Shown here: piece by piece, positions 29,067 through 40,028 of the stretch
Position numbering within the stretch: the first letter of the stretch is position 1
How the letters are laid out: every line of letters begins with the position of its first letter
Source of the DNA: Fibrobacterota bacterium
GTDB taxonomy: Bacteria > Fibrobacterota > Fibrobacteria > UBA11236
Direction of reading: 5' to 3'
DNA length: 64,000 nt
Assembly (NCBI GenBank): GCA_019509785.1
Contig: JAEKLQ010000039.1
Span: 62,001-126,000, forward strand
Notes under the pieces: generated by a model
What the model saw: the letters and a program-made list of their open reading frames with translations, nothing else
Told to the model about the DNA's origin: nothing
The model's database searches: none
Translations under genes and position numbers: made by a program

Positions 29067-29909
29067 ATGTCTTGCATCGTCCTGCTTACCGATTTCGGAT
29101 CGGCCGACTGGTTCGTCGGCACCTTGAAAGGTGTCATCGCCTCCATCGCCCCCAAGGCCCAGGTGATCGATCTCTGCCATGACATCCCTCCCGGGGACGT
29201 CAAGGCCGGGGCCTTCGCCCTGCTCACCTCTTACCGGTACTTCCCGCGCGGCACCATCTTCGTGGCGGTGGTCGATCCGGGGGTGGGAGGACCGCGCGAC
29301 GCGATGTTGGCCGAAGCCCATGGCTACCAATTCCTAGGCCCGGACAACGGCGTCTTGGCCTACGCCCTCTCCGGCGGCCCGCCCGGAACCGGAGGGGCCC
29401 GCCATGCGCCTTTCCGGCCCGTTATCGCCGAGGCCCCGCCTTACCGGCTGCGCGCCATCGAGAATCCCGAATACCGCCTGCCCGATGCCTCGGCCACCTT
29501 CCACGGCCGCGATATCTTCGCTCCCGCGGCCGCCCACTTAAGCCTCGGCAAAACCCCGGGTTCCTTCGGCCGCAAGAAGGACACCTTCGTGGAATTGCCC
29601 TTCCCGGTACCCTATATGGCGAAAGGCGCCGTGGTCGGGGAAATCGTGCATATCGATCGCTTCGGGAACGCCATCACCAACGTGACCCCGCGCGATCTGG
29701 AGTCCCTCCCCGAGAAAAAGCGCAAGGGCGCCATCGCCTTGGTCTCCAAAGGAAAAGCCTTCCCGCTGTCGGCCTTCTACGCGCAGGCGGGCGCCGGGAA
29801 GAACGCGGCGGTGCCGGGGTCGAGCGGATTCCTGGAACTGGCGATCTCGAACGGGAACGCGGCCAAGAAATTCGGATTCAAGCGCGGCGATCCGGTCAAG
29901 GTATCCTAG
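29067..29909 (+). CDS. S-adenosyl-L-methionine hydrolase (DUF62 / SAM hydroxide adenosyltransferase family)
   Basis: This family uses water or halide to split S-adenosyl-L-methionine into adenosine (or 5'-halo-adenosine) and methionine. The 280 residues carry the full motif series: IVLLTDFGSADWFVGTLKGV at the N-terminus, FVAVVDPGVGG (about 69-79), FLGPDNGVLAYAL (about 89-101), FHGRDIFAPAAAHL (about 144-157) and IHIDRFGNAITNVT (about 195-208). The substrate-binding Asp residues are present. No signal peptide, so cytoplasmic. It stands alone; why this organism degrades SAM cannot be read from context. Confidence 0.92.
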   Translation: MSCIVLLTDFGSADWFVGTLKGVIASIAPKAQVIDLCHDIPPGDVKAGAFALLTSYRYFPRGTIFVAVVDPGVGGPRDAMLAEAHGYQFLGPDNGVLAYALSGGPPGTGGARHAPFRPVIAEAPPYRLRAIENPEYRLPDASATFHGRDIFAPAAAHLSLGKTPGSFGRKKDTFVELPFPVPYMAKGAVVGEIVHIDRFGNAITNVTPRDLESLPEKKRKGAIALVSKGKAFPLSAFYAQAGAGKNAAVPGSSGFLELAISNGNAAKKFGFKRGDPVKVS

Positions 29910-31022: not shown

Positions 31023-31424
31023 CTATTTATCCTTGTCCGACATGGACGGGTCCAGCAAATCGCACACCTTCTGGAGCAGCCCGTTCGGGCTGAAAGGCTT
31101 GGGCAGGAAATCGGCTTCGGCGTCCCAGACTTCGATCTGCACGTTCACGTCCGCATTGTAACCGGAGATGTAGAGGACCTTCATCTCCGGTCGTTTGGGC
31201 CGCAGGAAACGGGCCAATTCCATGCCGTTGACGCGGGGCATTACCAAATCGGCGATCAGCAGATTGATGGGACCTTGATGGGTTTCGGCCACGGACTTGG
31301 CCTCATCGCTGTCCTTCGCTTCCAGAACGTGGTAATCGTTGATTTTCAGGATTTCCTTGACCAGGGTGCGATTGGACGCGATGTCGTCAACCACCAGGAT
31401 CGTCGGCTGCTTTTCCGTTCCCAT
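31023..31424 (-). CDS. Stand-alone receiver (CheY-like) protein
   Basis: The 133-residue protein is a single receiver domain: TILVVDDIASNRTLV at the N-terminus, phospho-acceptor Asp in LLIADLVMPRVNGMEL, the Thr/Ser switch replaced by VLYISGYNAD, and the conserved Lys in FLPKPFSPNG. There is no output domain. The start at 31424 follows GAGAGGT; an earlier frame start at 31451 lacks one. It converges on the phosphatase gene. Its relative at 34122 has the same layout. Confidence 0.9.
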   Translation of the reverse strand: MGTEKQPTILVVDDIASNRTLVKEILKINDYHVLEAKDSDEAKSVAETHQGPINLLIADLVMPRVNGMELARFLRPKRPEMKVLYISGYNADVNVQIEVWDAEADFLPKPFSPNGLLQKVCDLLDPSMSDKDK

Positions 31425-31627
31425 TGGACCTCTCTTGTGCCGCGCTTCCACGCGTCACCCGCGTTCTACCCGGGGCGTTCAGGTATGAAAACTAACTTAT
31501 TCCCCAGGCCCACACACCAAATAGAGCGCGTTCTTGCGTCCTAGGGTTCCCATTAATTGATGGATGTATAAGCCGCCAGCGTTCCCTATTCGGAGCTGGC
31601 GGCACGGGACCTATTCACGGGCCCGCC

Positions 31628-32503
31628 TTATGTCTTGAAGCAGGACAAGCGGTTCGAGCGCGTGGAGTGCTTCAGTCTTTTGAGGGCCTTCTCTTTGATC
31701 TGGCGCACCCGCTCCCGGGTGAGGTTGAAGCGCTGGCCTATCTCCTCGAGAGTATATCCGGTGTCCACGCCGATTCCGTAGTAGAGCCGGACCACCGCCT
31801 CTTCGCGGTCCTCGAGGGTGCCGAGAACCCCCTGCACCTCCCGCTTCAGGCTTCCCGCCAGCACCGGTTCCTCGGGGCTTTCGGCGTTGTCGTCCTTCAG
31901 CAAGTCGCCCACCTTGCCTTCTTCATCGGCCTGCAAAGGCGATTCGAGGGAGATGGGATTGGCCGAAAGCTGCAAGCACTCGCGGATTTCGTTCTCATCC
32001 AGGTTGAGATGATAGGACAACTCCGAATGCGAAACCGAGCGGCCCAACTTCTGTTCCAGGCGCGCGCCGGATTTGCCCAGGCGGTGGATGGCGCTCACCC
32101 GGTTCAGCGGCACGTTCAAGATGCGCGATTGCTCGGCCAGGCATTGCAGGATCGCCTGGCGGATCCACCAGACCGCGTAGCTGATGAACTTGAAATGCTT
32201 GGTCTCGTCGAAGCGCTTGGCGGCCCGGATCAATCCGAGGTTGCCTTCGTTGATGAGATCCGTCATCGGCAATCCCTGGTTCTGGTAATTGCGGCAGACG
32301 GAGACCACGAATTTCAGGTTGGCGCTGATGAGCTTGTTCAACGCGCGGCGATCGCCCTGGCGGATGCGCATGGCGAGGTCCGCTTCCTCGCTCAGGGACA
32401 AGTTCTGATTCTTGCTGATTTCCCGGAGATAGAGGGAGAGGCCCGAATCATCCGCTACGAACTTGAGGGAACGCTCGGAACTCGAGGATTTTGGGTCGGC
32501 CAA
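31628..32503 (-). CDS. RNA polymerase sigma factor, RpoD-like, without region 1.1
   Basis: Region 1.2 (DSGLSLYLREISKNQNLSLS), region 2 (NLKFVVSVCRNYQNQGLPMT through FISYAVWWIRQAILQCLAEQ), region 3 and region 4 with helix-turn-helix TLEEIGQRFNLTRERVRQIK are all present. From the chosen TTG at 32503 it is 291 residues, close to the short primary sigma factors of Bacteroidota-type bacteria. That TTG has AAAGGAG six bases upstream; the frame extends to a TTG at 32545 with no such site. It could be the primary sigma factor or a group 2 paralogue. Confidence 0.92.
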   Translation of the reverse strand: MADPKSSSSERSLKFVADDSGLSLYLREISKNQNLSLSEEADLAMRIRQGDRRALNKLISANLKFVVSVCRNYQNQGLPMTDLINEGNLGLIRAAKRFDETKHFKFISYAVWWIRQAILQCLAEQSRILNVPLNRVSAIHRLGKSGARLEQKLGRSVSHSELSYHLNLDENEIRECLQLSANPISLESPLQADEEGKVGDLLKDDNAESPEEPVLAGSLKREVQGVLGTLEDREEAVVRLYYGIGVDTGYTLEEIGQRFNLTRERVRQIKEKALKRLKHSTRSNRLSCFKT

Positions 32504-32771
32504 GGTTGGCTCCTTTCCGAAACCCTCCCAATCAAATTTTCTCAACCCCGTGGCGCAAGGGAATTTGAGGAACTCGGCGATCCTGCGTTTTTTGGCCTCG
32601 GAAGCGCCCCTTTTCGCGGAAAAAGCCGGATCGGAAGGGAGATTAGCAGGGATGGTTTTCCCGGCAGCCTCGCAGGGTATACTCTCCGTTTGTTCGAAGC
32701 AGCCGCCCTCGTGAGCGAAATAGTCCGCCCGGCCACGTAACCGATTCGCCCGCGCATGCGTCTAAGGCATC

Positions 32772-34121: not shown

Positions 34122-34499
34122 ATGCATTTCGAAACGATTTTGTTGGTCGAAGACGACGGTTCCCTCCGTAGCGTGATGAAGCTGTTCCTGGAGCATTCGG
34201 GCTTCGGGGTATTGGAGGCGGACAACGGCGTCGATGCTTTGTTCATGAGCGGCCAGCATCCTGGCCCCATCCACCTGCTTTTGACGGACGTGGAGATGTC
34301 GCCCATGAGCGGTCCCGAACTGGCGGAGCAGGTTCTGCTCCACCGGCCCGAGACCCAGGTGCTTTTCATGTCCGGGAACAGGCAGCCCGAGGATTTGTTC
34401 AACGACATGTGCCTCTTGAACGCCCGCTTTCTGGGCAAGCCGTTCAATCCGAGTACGCTGCACCATACGGTGCGGCAGGTGCTGGGGGCCCCCGGCTGA
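34122..34499 (+). CDS. Stand-alone receiver (CheY-like) protein
   Basis: A 125-residue single receiver domain: TILLVEDDGSLRSVM, phospho-acceptor Asp in LLLTDVEMSPMSGPEL, and Lys in FLGKPFNPST. The stretch GPIHLLLTDVEM is of the kind found in receivers attached to hybrid kinases. GAAGGA lies upstream of the ATG at 34122. The next large frame (SelO-like) begins before or just after its stop, so the two may be co-transcribed and functionally linked. Confidence 0.9.
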   Translation: MHFETILLVEDDGSLRSVMKLFLEHSGFGVLEADNGVDALFMSGQHPGPIHLLLTDVEMSPMSGPELAEQVLLHRPETQVLFMSGNRQPEDLFNDMCLLNARFLGKPFNPSTLHHTVRQVLGAPG

Positions 34500-36457
34500 G
34501 CGGGGTCGCGCGACAGCCCGGACGCCGCGGCGCCCGGGCGTCCTCCGAGGCCCGGCGGGGACCGTCGTCCCGCTCCTTCGCTTGGAAATCCCCGGCGTCC
34601 AGGCCCGGCGCGCGGCCGCCGTCCGAACGGGAAGGTTCCGGCGCGGATCCTTACGCGCGTTTCCATCGCCTCGACGGATCGCATCCTTGGCGCGAAGCCG
34701 CCCCGGACGGTTTCGTGGATTACCCCGCGCGTTACCGTCCCGGCGGACGCGTGGCCTATTTCAATTTCCCTTTGGCGCGCGAACTGGAACTGGTCCCTTC
34801 CGGCCATCCCGCCCGCCTGAACGCGCGGCTGGAGACGCGCATCTTGGAAACCTTCTCCCTGCAGATCATCAACGAATACGATCTGGCCCATCCGGAACGC
34901 GTGAAGGGCGCGCGCGTCAAGCCGAACCCCTTTATGGCGACACGCTACCTGCAATTGCAGCATAAGGACAAGCGCGGGCGCACCTCCGGCGACGGGCGCA
35001 GCATCTGGAACGGCAGCCTGGAAGCCAACGGGATGAGCTTCGACGTCAGCAGCCGCGGCACCGGCGCCACCATCCTTTCCCCCGGCGCCTCCGAGGCCGG
35101 CAAACCCCTGCCGACGGGGGACGAGGTCCATGGCTACGCATCGGGTACCGCCGACTTGGACGAGATGCTGGGCTCGGCGCTGATGTCGGAAATATTCTAC
35201 CGCCAAGGGATCCCCACCGAGCGCTGCCTGGCGGTGATCGATTACGGGGACGGAACCTCCATCGGCGTGCGCACCGCGCCTAACCTCATCCGCCCCGCGC
35301 ATATCTTCCGTTACCTCAAGCTGGGCCTGCGGGACGGGCTGGAGCGCTCGCTGGCGCATTTTTTCGATCGGCAGGAAGCCAACGGCATTTGGAAGCTGCC
35401 CGCGGGACGCGAAGCCCGCATGGCCGCCGGCCTCGATCGCATCGCCCGATCCTACGGCAAGCTGGCCGCGGTGATGGAAGAGGATTACATCTTCAATTGG
35501 CTTTCCTGGGACGGCGATAACGTGCTCGCCGACGGATCCATCCTCGATTACGGATCCATCCGCCAGTTCGCGGCCAAGTCGGACAAGTACCGGTACGAGG
35601 ACGTAGATCGCTTTTCCACCTGCCTCACCGAGCAGCGTTATTGGGCACGCCTGATGACGCAGGCCTTCGCCCAGGCCGCCGATTTCATCCTCACCGGGAC
35701 CAAGAAGCCGCTCAAGGGTTTTCGCGAGGCGGCTTGCCTCCGGGCTTTCGACGCCGCCTTCGGCGAAGAGCGGGATCGACGCCTACTGTGGCGCCTGGGC
35801 TTCGACTCGTCCAGTTGCGAACGCCTGCTGGCGACGGCTCGCGGCTCGATCGCCGAATTCCGCCGCGCCCTCGCCTATTTCGAGGACCTCAAGGTCGCCA
35901 AAGGCCCCGAGCGCCTTCCCGACGGCATCACCCATCGGCCCGTGTTCCTTATCCGCAGCCTTTTGCGCGAGCTTCCCCGCTTCTGGTCGCGCGCGGGCCT
36001 TTCCGCCGATCTGGATCCGGATCGCTTCTGCCGCATCATGGCCGCCTCCTACGCGGCCAAACGCGACTTGGAAGTGTCTCCCGCCCGGGCCGCGCATACG
36101 CGCGAATTCCAGGAGGGCTACCGCAAGCTGATGCGCCTGGCCGCCGAAGGATGCAAGGAGGCCGTATCCCCGGAGCAAATCTTGTCGGTGCTGGCCGAGC
36201 GCTCATCGGTGATCAACCATCCCCACCGCCTCACGGGGGACGGATTGGTTTGGATCATCAACCAGGTGATATCCCTGAAGGACAAGCTGGGGTGGGCGGA
36301 ATTGCAACAGGCCATGGACACCTTCATCGATTCGCAAGTGCTCATTCCCGGCCAATGGCGGCCGCTTCCCGACGCGGACCTCCGCTCCTCCCGCCCCAAG
36401 GGCCGGCTGCTGCGCAAGATCCGGCAGGACCTGAAGAATTACCGCGAGACCGTTTGA
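34409..36457 (+). CDS. Divergent SelO/YdiU-like pseudokinase (putative protein AMPylase)
   Basis: SelO enzymes have an atypical kinase fold and transfer AMP to Ser/Thr/Tyr of target proteins. Matches to that family, in order: FNFPLARELEL (34760-34792), SGDGRSIWNGSLE (34988-35026), a FDVSSRGTGAT segment, ALMSEIFYRQGIPTERCLAV (35177-35236) like the SelO LGIPTTRAL block, APNLIRPAHIFRYL, and NVLADGSILDYGSIRQF (35520-35570) with the Asn and Asp-Tyr-Gly that hold metal. Similarity is clear in order but distant in sequence. Start uncertain: GTG at 34409 overlaps the receiver gene by 91 bases and its first 70 codons look non-native; GTG at 34715 is another option. C-terminal 200 residues are helical. 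Confidence 0.6.
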   Translation: MPLERPLSGQAVQSEYAAPYGAAGAGGPRLSGVARQPGRRGARASSEARRGPSSRSFAWKSPASRPGARPPSEREGSGADPYARFHRLDGSHPWREAAPDGFVDYPARYRPGGRVAYFNFPLARELELVPSGHPARLNARLETRILETFSLQIINEYDLAHPERVKGARVKPNPFMATRYLQLQHKDKRGRTSGDGRSIWNGSLEANGMSFDVSSRGTGATILSPGASEAGKPLPTGDEVHGYASGTADLDEMLGSALMSEIFYRQGIPTERCLAVIDYGDGTSIGVRTAPNLIRPAHIFRYLKLGLRDGLERSLAHFFDRQEANGIWKLPAGREARMAAGLDRIARSYGKLAAVMEEDYIFNWLSWDGDNVLADGSILDYGSIRQFAAKSDKYRYEDVDRFSTCLTEQRYWARLMTQAFAQAADFILTGTKKPLKGFREAACLRAFDAAFGEERDRRLLWRLGFDSSSCERLLATARGSIAEFRRALAYFEDLKVAKGPERLPDGITHRPVFLIRSLLRELPRFWSRAGLSADLDPDRFCRIMAASYAAKRDLEVSPARAAHTREFQEGYRKLMRLAAEGCKEAVSPEQILSVLAERSSVINHPHRLTGDGLVWIINQVISLKDKLGWAELQQAMDTFIDSQVLIPGQWRPLPDADLRSSRPKGRLLRKIRQDLKNYRETV

Positions 36458-36550: not shown

Positions 36551-36994
36551 ATGAAGAATTGCCTTATCTGCCAGACCGGGCAGGACCAAGTCGCGTTGAA
36601 CCGTATCCCCGTGGCCATGGAAGGCTCCCATTGGGGGGACATGCTGGTTTGCGCAAGCTGCCTGGAAGTGCTGGGCGCCGAAGAGGTGAAGGGTTTGATC
36701 AGCGCCGCCGTGCGCGAGAAGTCCTTCGAGCCCAGCAACGTGATCCTGGCGGATGAGAAAACGGCGGCGGCCGAGGTGGAGCCCGGCCTGGTGGAGCTTC
36801 CCGTGAGCGCCGCCCTCCTGCGCGACCCGCAAGCCTTCGCCCGCACCGTCGGCGAAAAAATGGGCGCCAAGCTTTGGGACCTGCATCGCCAAGGCGTATC
36901 GGACGCGGTGTGGACCACCTCCCTCACGCCCGACGGCGAAGGAGGCTACGTCTTCGCCGCCGCCTTCGCTCAGTCACCAGCGGGTCAGACTTAG
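36551..36994 (+). CDS. Small zinc-ribbon-like protein, unknown function
   Basis: A 147-residue protein with CLIC at residues 4-7 and CASC at about 35-38, two CxxC knuckles that could bind one zinc ion. The remainder is mixed alpha/beta without a recognised domain (for example VSDAVWTTSLTPDGEGGYVF). AGGAGGG lies seven bases before the ATG, the best ribosome site in the region. It precedes the Rof-like gene by 61 bases. Confidence 0.65.
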   Translation: MKNCLICQTGQDQVALNRIPVAMEGSHWGDMLVCASCLEVLGAEEVKGLISAAVREKSFEPSNVILADEKTAAAEVEPGLVELPVSAALLRDPQAFARTVGEKMGAKLWDLHRQGVSDAVWTTSLTPDGEGGYVFAAAFAQSPAGQT

Positions 36995-37055: not shown

Positions 37056-37301
37056 ATGGAACGTAACGACGACTACCGACCCATCGCTTGCGACTTGTAT
37101 GATCGCTTGGAATCCATCGCCACTTTACGAAGCCTGGTTCGCTTGACGCTTAAGGACGAAGACGCCGGGCCCGGCGGCGCGTCCGCTGAAGGCCGGATCG
37201 CGGACATCTATACGCGCGAAGACAAGCAGGAGTTTCTGCGGCTGGACGGCGGACAGGAGATCCGCCTGGATCGGATCATCGGCATTTTACCGATTGGATA
37301 G
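37056..37301 (+). CDS. rof: Rof/YaeO-like inhibitor of Rho termination
   Basis: Rof (YaeO) binds the Rho hexamer and blocks its RNA-binding site, reducing Rho-dependent termination. The 81-residue protein has the family pattern: YRPIACDLYDRLES (residues 7-20, as in the YxPIxCDxYDxLE start), a central basic/hydrophobic strand LVRLTL, and a C-terminal EFLRLDGGQEIRLDRI (about 60-75, as in LRLDKI). Length matches. It follows the zinc-ribbon gene. In phyla other than Proteobacteria Rof is seldom described, so an experimental link to Rho is not assured. Confidence 0.75.
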   Translation: MERNDDYRPIACDLYDRLESIATLRSLVRLTLKDEDAGPGGASAEGRIADIYTREDKQEFLRLDGGQEIRLDRIIGILPIG

Positions 37302-38063: not shown

Positions 38064-40028
38064 TTGCCTCTACATCGCTTTCGCCTGCTCCTACTAACGA
38101 CCGCTTTTTTCCTCTCCGCCTGCCTTTCTCAAGAGGACATGTACGGTGGTGCAAATGATGGAGAAGCGATTTATGGAGTCAAGAAGGAGCCTACTCCGGA
38201 GACGACCCCATTCCCATATCCCTACCCCGAGGTCGGAGACGCTTGGACCTTACGAAACGGTTCGCTTTTAGGATCATCGGAAATCCGATCCCTGGTATGG
38301 GCAAAAACGAAACTCGTGGGAGTGTTGGGAAGCACAGGCGCCAACGCCATGGTCGTGACGTCCACCGACGGGACGGCCTGGGCATCTCATCCGACTGGGA
38401 TTCCCGGAGGCTTTCTTAGTTCCTTGGTCTGGACCGACCGGCAGCTCGTCGCGGTCGGAAAGGACAGCAGCGGCGCCGCGATCGCGACCTCGCCGGACGG
38501 CATCACTTGGTCGCGTCGTTCCGCCGGTATAAAGGGCGCGCTAACTTCCGTAACCTGGACCGGATCCCAACTCGTGGCGGTGGGAAGGGAAGGAGACAGC
38601 GTAGGTATTCTTACCTCACCCGACGGAATCGCCTGGACGCCCCGCTCCTCGGGGATTAAAGGCGGGGCTATCTCCGTAACCTGGACTGGAAGCCTACTAG
38701 TGCTGGTAGCTAAGGATGAGGCGATTTCCCCGAGCGCGATCTGGACCTCGCCCGACGGCATCATATGGACTTATCGGCCCGTAGACGGCCTTCGCGAGCT
38801 GAACGCGATGATATGGACCGGGAGCCAGCTCGTTGCCGTAGGCGCCGGTACGTATTCCATGGCGCACATTCCGGAAATACGAACCTCACCGGATGGCATC
38901 GCTTGGACCGCTCGTGATGCCGGCATTTCCGGGGATCTTTTTTCGGTAACCTGGACCGGCAGCCGCTTGGTGGCCGTGGGAGCCGGATATGGCACGGCCG
39001 CCTCCTTGATACTATCGTCACCTGACGGTATCAATTGGACTCTTATCTCTTCCAACATCCACGGCGAGCTTTCCTCTGTGACCTGGACCGGAGATTGGCT
39101 CGTAGCGGCCGGAAGGCATGGCAACGGGAACGCCCAGTCCCTGACCTCTATCGATGGCAATGACTGGATATCCGCGAACGATGATTGCCAATGCGAACTA
39201 TCCTCGGTTACCTGGACGGGCAAACTCTTCGTGGCGGTCGGAAAGGATTATGAAAGAGTAACGATCATGACTTCGGTTGACGGGACATCCTGGATCACCC
39301 GCTCTCCCGGGATCGCTGGAAGGCTTTCCTCCGTAATCTGGGCCAACGGCCTATTGCTGGCTGTCGGATGGGATAGCAATGCCCCCTTTATCCTGACTTC
39401 GCTAAACGGGATCGATTGGATCCCCCAGTACCCCGGACTCGCAAATGGCACTCTTCGCGCGGCGACATGGACCGGCAAGCAATTCGTAGCCGTCGGAGGG
39501 GATACCAACAAGACGGCGACGATCACTACCTCTCCCGATGGCATCAACTGGTGGCCCCGTCCCTCCGGGACCAGCGGCGAATTTTATTCGATAACCTGGA
39601 CCGGCGGCGAATTGGTTGCCGTGGGATTGGATCCACGGGACGGCGGCATCAGCGCGACTTCGCCCGACGGCATCACCTGGACGGCCGGGGAGCCCGTTAC
39701 CCGAAGCGGGCTTTCCTCGGTTACCTGGACCGGCAATCAGCTCGTGGCCTTGGGAGCGGATAGTAGCGGGGCCCTGATCCGAACCTCACCGGATGGCAGC
39801 GCTTGGACTGATTATTCTTCGGGAATCCCTTATGGGCTTCGCTCACTAGCCTGGACCGGAAAACAACTCGTAGGCCTAGGTCCCGGATTCCTGCTTACTT
39901 CCCCCGACGCAATCTCTTGGTCCCCTCACGCAACCGGAATCGTCGAGGGCGGGCTCTTATCCCTGACCAGCGATGGGAAGCAACTCGTGGCGGTCGGAAG
40001 CAATGGCGTCATCTTGACCTCGCCATAG
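38064..40028 (+). CDS. Lipoprotein made of about 13 tandem propeller-like repeats
   Basis: TTG start, then a lipoprotein signal with FLSAC (Cys near residue 19) and a short Pro-rich linker. From about residue 60 to the end there are about 13 units of roughly 45 residues with the pattern SVTWTG-QLVAVG-x(8)-TSPDGI-W. Aromatic/Gly-rich four-strand units with a conserved SPDG turn suggest BNR/PSII-assembly-type beta-propeller blades; 13 units could make one or two rings. The protein is probably surface-displayed and binds ligands. Its codon usage and GC look lower than the neighbours, hinting at transfer or fast evolution. Starts nine bases after the preceding membrane-protein gene. Confidence 0.75.
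   Translation: MPLHRFRLLLLTTAFFLSACLSQEDMYGGANDGEAIYGVKKEPTPETTPFPYPYPEVGDAWTLRNGSLLGSSEIRSLVWAKTKLVGVLGSTGANAMVVTSTDGTAWASHPTGIPGGFLSSLVWTDRQLVAVGKDSSGAAIATSPDGITWSRRSAGIKGALTSVTWTGSQLVAVGREGDSVGILTSPDGIAWTPRSSGIKGGAISVTWTGSLLVLVAKDEAISPSAIWTSPDGIIWTYRPVDGLRELNAMIWTGSQLVAVGAGTYSMAHIPEIRTSPDGIAWTARDAGISGDLFSVTWTGSRLVAVGAGYGTAASLILSSPDGINWTLISSNIHGELSSVTWTGDWLVAAGRHGNGNAQSLTSIDGNDWISANDDCQCELSSVTWTGKLFVAVGKDYERVTIMTSVDGTSWITRSPGIAGRLSSVIWANGLLLAVGWDSNAPFILTSLNGIDWIPQYPGLANGTLRAATWTGKQFVAVGGDTNKTATITTSPDGINWWPRPSGTSGEFYSITWTGGELVAVGLDPRDGGISATSPDGITWTAGEPVTRSGLSSVTWTGNQLVALGADSSGALIRTSPDGSAWTDYSSGIPYGLRSLAWTGKQLVGLGPGFLLTSPDAISWSPHATGIVEGGLLSLTSDGKQLVAVGSNGVILTSP

Follow-up and report, generated by a model that had tools for sequence, protein, structure and literature searches.

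What does a SelO-like protein do directly behind a single-domain receiver, and how are the two made? The question comes from an open reading frame (ORF) at positions 34409-36457 on the forward strand of a 64,000-nt stretch of Fibrobacterota DNA (the window), whose presence we confirm. A preliminary description had taken it for a distant relative of the SelO AMPylases. The explanation we consider best combines coupled synthesis of the two proteins with a receiver-controlled nucleotidyl transferase; taken whole, we give it an even chance of being right.

The motifs GDGR, IPTERC and NVL-x(6)-DYGS follow one another in the ORF in the order first described. In the profile search against SelO that had been proposed, the ORF matches the NCBIfam YdiU model with E=2e-6 and the Pfam family PF02696 with E=0.0036 (16.6-16.9 bits), the latter under the gathering score of 22.8 bits. 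Three of its five same-genus relatives exceed that score. PF02696 is matched at E<=0.1 by 21 of 29 subfamily members (best 4.8e-10), and NCBIfam YdiU weakly by all 29 rows of our first alignment. Profile-profile comparison with five standard SelO, namely E. coli YdiU and four SelO of Fibrobacterota, gives a probability of 99.4%, and in the reverse search the subfamily profile matches a standard SelO at E=4.5e-5. Searched against the PDB, the ORF itself retrieves designed proteins only (E 0.2-0.98) and the subfamily profile finds YdiU at a weak E of 0.26. The similarity to SelO is real and not a matter of chance.

An AlphaFold2 model of the protein was built from 29 rows and has a mean pLDDT of 74.4 and a pTM of 0.77. 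Foldseek matches it to nine YdiU/SelO chains with E values from 1.6e-8 to 8.4e-7; these are the only matches with E<=0.001, the next one standing at 0.099. VIA-align superposes 411-439 of its residues on seven SelO/YdiU entries at an rmsd of 4.4-4.8, with Z from 25.4 to 20.8 against 7.1 for the next entry. The two comparisons settle that the predicted structure is the SelO variant of the protein-kinase-like fold, so that the proposed structure prediction did return a kinase-like protein. Fold, profile-profile score and the metal ligands kept in 40 of 40 members (below) all bear out the distant kinship, and the window protein is almost certainly a member of a distant SelO subfamily. The model is weak at the catalytic loop, with residues 280-325 under pLDDT 50; we therefore read the pocket from the alignment only.

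The subfamily is patchily distributed. Six of the 41 genomes searched carry the protein, all of one Fibrobacterota genus, and it is absent from the other 35. Among 167 genomes of the phylum there are seven with a match, these six and one more whose hit is a standard SelO (E=4.5e-5); a PF02696 search of the window's own genome found no standard SelO. A scan of genome contigs gave 28 loci, five of them in Fibrobacterota (on contigs already counted) and the others in further phyla, the hosts being Fibrobacterota, Acidobacteriota, Omnitrophota, Nitrospirota and Phycisphaerae. When the search was extended to the phyla of the members from Omnitrophota and Acidobacteriota, 8 genomes out of 384 matched for the former and 11 out of 396 for the latter; from these we took one new member from Omnitrophota (L054) and ten from Acidobacteriota (L058-L067). 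A full-scoring standard SelO co-occurs in only 3 of the 22 host genomes outside Fibrobacterota. No relative was found in 104 candidate stretches of viral contigs, and the plasmid search gave no match. In a tree of 44 rows, whose rooting and joins are uncertain owing to long branches, a long branch supported at 100/100 sets the 39 members apart from the five standard SelO; by this measure the subfamily is separate from standard SelO. The literature covered, which included few subscription papers, holds no report of it.

Which parts of the SelO active site are retained? We followed residue conservation over 40 members (29 of the first alignment and 11 further ones), numbering residues by the SelO-like core and mapping them by profile-profile alignment onto standard SelO, with residue roles taken from PMC8097203. 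All features located here lie on the forward strand. The GDGR motif (core residues 113-116; 34988-34999) keeps its Asp and Arg in every member. Equally strict are Arg207 and Arg214 (35270-35293), the counterparts of the gamma-phosphate residues R176 and R183 of SelO. The metal-binding Asn and the DFG-type Asp, whose retention in relatives the preliminary description had regarded as decisive, lie in the stretch D289-N290...D299-Y-G-S (35516-35548): N290 (codon at 35519) and D299 (codon at 35546) correspond to N253 and D262 of P. syringae and are present in 40 of 40 members, as is D289.

Other features of SelO proper are gone. The beta-3 Lys (P. syringae K113), a gamma-phosphate contact (PMC8097203), is replaced in the window by Arg135 (35054-35056), and none of the 40 members has Lys there (R 25, C 12, G 2, S 1). 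In the alpha-C stretch (35162-35176), Ser175 stands at the place of its Glu partner (P. syringae E136), a position at which no member has Glu. A passage of PMC3281104 calls this Lys "almost invariant" and this Glu "invariant" in SelO; both are present in all five standard SelO compared, and none of the 40 subfamily members has the pair. AMPylation, which the preliminary description had put forward, can therefore not be assumed. The C-terminal Cys that SelO needs for NADase activity, according to a passage of PMC13391479, is likewise missing: no Cxx tail ends any of the 29 first-alignment members (one tail, that of L038, is cut by a contig end), the two with any Cys in their last 12 residues do not have it third from the end, and the 11 further members have no Cys tail. 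Since the plan of SelO is kept but the features that define SelO proper fail, we file these proteins as a separate SelO-like subfamily. As a detail within it, Cys predominates in the second Acidobacteriota branch (L058-L067) both at the Lys place and at the position, before the catalytic loop, that is Asn282 in other members.

The loss of the Lys/Glu pair may mean that there is no catalysis. A catalytically dead SelO-fold protein, there to sense nucleotides or to scaffold the receiver, would agree with the pair missing throughout and with the absent Cys tail. We judge it rather unlikely, given that the metal ligands, both phosphate Arg and D289 have been kept in all 40 members; a strict DFG-type Asp would be unexpected in a protein that binds without catalysis. 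Two further invariant residues (40 of 40), R98 and E171, the latter in the alpha-C stretch one helical turn before position 175, are candidates to replace the lost Lys and Glu in a putatively rebuilt pocket. We lean slightly towards an enzyme that would transfer a nucleotide.

The adjacent receiver of the preliminary description is confirmed. It is encoded at 34122-34499, starts with ATG and comprises 125 residues of a single receiver domain with no output domain (PF00072, E=1.1e-17; 64.6 bits against a gathering score of 30.2). Its orthologs, at 79-85% identity, are confined to the other five genomes of the genus; in the 15 genomes searched, the receiver that ranks next by score is 47% identical. 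The six genomes with the receiver ortholog are thus precisely those with the SelO-like one. Synteny within the genus extends over much of the neighbourhood, so adjacency by itself is weak evidence. Outside the genus, a receiver lies directly upstream on the same strand in 1 of 34 relatives, a count that leaves aside same-contig repeats (L049-L053, L057) and a fragment (L055), covers flanks of different lengths and includes three loci with less than 310 nt upstream, which are not judgeable (L019, L027, L039). The single case, L037 from Omnitrophota, has its receiver 7 nt before the SelO-like start (PF00072, E=1.4e-18), and this receiver is not kin to that of the window. Opposite-strand receivers occur in the flanks of L059, L060 and L066, at about chance level by an uncomputed estimate. 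Pairing with a receiver is specific to the genus, plus one independent case in Omnitrophota, and we reject the receiver as a general partner of the subfamily. Beyond a few loci, no other conserved neighbours were found outside the genus.

The association had been called unusual. Response_reg domains are present in 34% of SelO neighbourhoods according to a passage of PMC10364804, so a two-component link is not unusual for SelO-type genes. The same limited literature, few subscription papers among it, holds no receiver-coupled SelO and no AMPylation tied to a receiver. The receiver could also be a mere neighbour in a compact operon, with the SelO-like protein acting alone as it does elsewhere. 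We take this seriously, at somewhat less than an even chance: the receiver is usually missing in relatives from other phyla and the whole neighbourhood is syntenic, but there is the second receiver pair in L037, and in all six genomes of the genus the SelO-like gene has lost its own start codon, its synthesis being tied to the receiver gene. It is this link in reading frame that says more about the pairing than adjacency does.

Downstream of the SelO-like gene, in all six genomes of the genus, lies that of a 147-residue protein with two CxxC pairs and no Pfam family above cut-off (36551-36994). Next comes a small ORF at 37056-37301 matching ROF, a modulator of Rho-dependent termination (PF07073, E=2.1e-10), and at 38064-40028 a 654-residue protein with many 'WTG..LVAVG..SPDG..W' repeats and no Pfam match, perhaps a beta-propeller. 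On the other side are a SAM hydroxide adenosyltransferase (29067-29909; PF01887/PF20257) and, on the reverse strand, another single-domain receiver (31023-31451) adjoining an RpoD-like sigma factor with regions 1.2 to 4 (31628-32545). In two Omnitrophota-branch genomes, a DUF4019 protein (PF13211) is encoded directly upstream of the SelO-like gene (L034:5499-5954, L035:5533-5988).

Where does synthesis of the SelO-like protein begin? Motifs, profile-profile comparison, fold and selection on its first codons delimit a conserved part of 601 residues at 34652-36457. The start first proposed, the GTG at 34409, falls within the receiver gene and is not conserved in the genus; we reject it. An internal GTG at core residue 34 is discarded as well, being no GTG in L004 and dropping 33 codons under purifying selection. 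Over these first 33 conserved codons, counted from 34652, pN is 0.09-0.23 against a pS of 0.39-0.95, in 15 of 15 pairs; judging from this signature, they are clearly translated. Among 23 relatives outside Fibrobacterota, 22 start at -3 from a conserved Tyr (21 with ATG, one with GTG), and the remaining one has an ATG at -15, five codons before it. In all six genomes of the genus the -3 codon encodes Pro or Ala and is no start codon: the ancestral ATG is gone, and a frame link to the receiver stop has been kept across changing linker lengths. In four of the six, the interval from the receiver stop to the Tyr contains no ATG, GTG or TTG, and in two of the genus (L003, L004) these codons are absent from the whole open frame that precedes the Tyr.

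All six genomes carry the overlap CTGA (34496-34499 in the window), in which the receiver's TGA is preceded one base earlier by a CTG in the SelO-like frame. This CTG is the sole in-frame start or near-cognate codon common to all six from the receiver stop to the Tyr, in receivers where C is a common third base (280 of 744 codons). From it runs a variable linker or N-terminal extension, probably translated, which covers 52 codons in the window (34496-34651) and 7-65 codons in the relatives of the genus. It is in frame and free of stops in 6 of 6 genomes; we dropped the lack of stops as evidence, a third frame being equally stop-free. The distances from CTG to Tyr (156, 153, 195, 117, 180 and 21 nt) are all multiples of 3. 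Chance would give six such linkers with a probability of 0.004 if they were independent, and the counts for frame, CTG and SD-like sequence are not, coming from six genomes of one genus. The SD-like pentamer GGGGG stands 7 nt before the CTG in four genomes and was not found in two. The linker itself evolves nearly freely, pS only modestly exceeding pN, as expected of a tether or tail. A sequencing error behind the -1 relation of the two frames is rejected, as six separate assemblies have the same relation. CUG is a poor start codon. The conserved SelO-like protein begins at 34652, with the CTG of 34496 as the most likely point of translation initiation.

Two other routes to the protein have to be weighed. 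A programmed -1 frameshift near the receiver stop would yield a receiver-linker-SelO-like fusion besides free receiver, with the linker as a hinge. It would account for the absence of a kept good start codon, and the in-frame linkers do vary like a hinge; in every one of the six genomes the -1 frame stays open over 48 nt or more ahead of the receiver stop, and four of the six have a GGG codon preceded by G near the receiver end. However, X_XXY_YYZ heptamers occur in two of the six only, at differing places, and the stop region shows no exceptional RNA stability (z between -2.0 and +0.9 for pseudoknot-free folding of six sequences), which makes a frameshift improbable in our eyes. Initiation at lineage-specific weak codons in the linker or receiver gene could draw on existing candidates, such as GTG 34409 here, an ATG in L005 and a TTG in L002. 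It appears quite improbable, for the open frames of L003 and L004 offer no such codon before the Tyr, and a linker in multiples of 3 would be unnecessary.

We now propose how re-initiation could connect the two proteins. Ribosomes would finish the receiver and then restart at the CTG overlapping its TGA to make the SelO-like protein, so that both would be produced together at a fixed ratio. A histidine kinase encoded elsewhere would phosphorylate the receiver, which would then bind the SelO-like enzyme and switch a Mg/Mn-dependent nucleotidyl transfer, most likely of AMP, onto a protein target. We regard the two proteins as coupled because re-initiation at the CTG is probably how the enzyme comes to be translated. 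Coupled translation of either kind seems to us probable, and given coupling we favour, with reasonable confidence, CUG re-initiation over a frameshift. Control of the enzyme by the receiver is a proposition for which we see the case as evenly balanced. Receiver-controlled nucleotidyl transfer is, as far as sequence can suggest, a likely function. One may go further and suppose that the subfamily rebuilt its pocket without the Lys/Glu pair, which would imply a different donor or chemistry from SelO, and that in one lineage it became the obligate translational partner of a receiver; this fuller reading we hold to be doubtful. If the proposal is true, nucleotidyl transfer to proteins would be the output of a two-component system, and a SelO-like enzyme would depend for its synthesis on prior translation of its receiver, by way of a frameshift or of a stop/start overlap that lacks AUG.

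Compared with SelO/YdiU (PF02696; E. coli YdiU, P. syringae SelO 6EAC), the subfamily shares the fold over the whole length, the order GDGR...GIPT..R...RxxxxxxR...DN...DYG, the metal ligands Asn and Asp and the two Arg of the gamma-phosphate site. Unlike SelO/YdiU, it lacks the beta-3 Lys, the alpha-C Glu and the C-terminal Cys tail and has invariant R98, H104, E171 and D287; the window protein is also larger (about 600 residues against about 480), stays under the Pfam gathering score and belongs to a branch of its own with 100/100 support. With the Lys and Glu gone and the metal site and phosphate Arg kept, these proteins provide a natural test of the residues that SelO chemistry needs. Another far branch of the SelO superfamily is formed by the microcin-maturation proteins MchC/MceJ, a distant SelO subfamily according to a passage of PMC3281104; we liken them by that description and not by sequence, and inspection by eye of the listed neighbours of the SelO-like genes turned up no microcin cluster.

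The locus would also tie a SelO-fold enzyme to a phosphorelay, through a coupling that is open to simple reporters. As in the termination-reinitiation pairs established at ATGA and TGATG overlaps in the consulted part of PMC6728339, the stop shares bases with the proposed start, and the same ribosome is proposed to serve both genes. Unlike those pairs, the overlap here is CTGA and is followed by a long, variable, probably translated extension. The CTG is a non-standard start for such a pair, though the CTGA is conserved in 6 of 6 genomes, and the locus offers a candidate conserved CUG start or frameshift of the kind that automated gene calling would miss.
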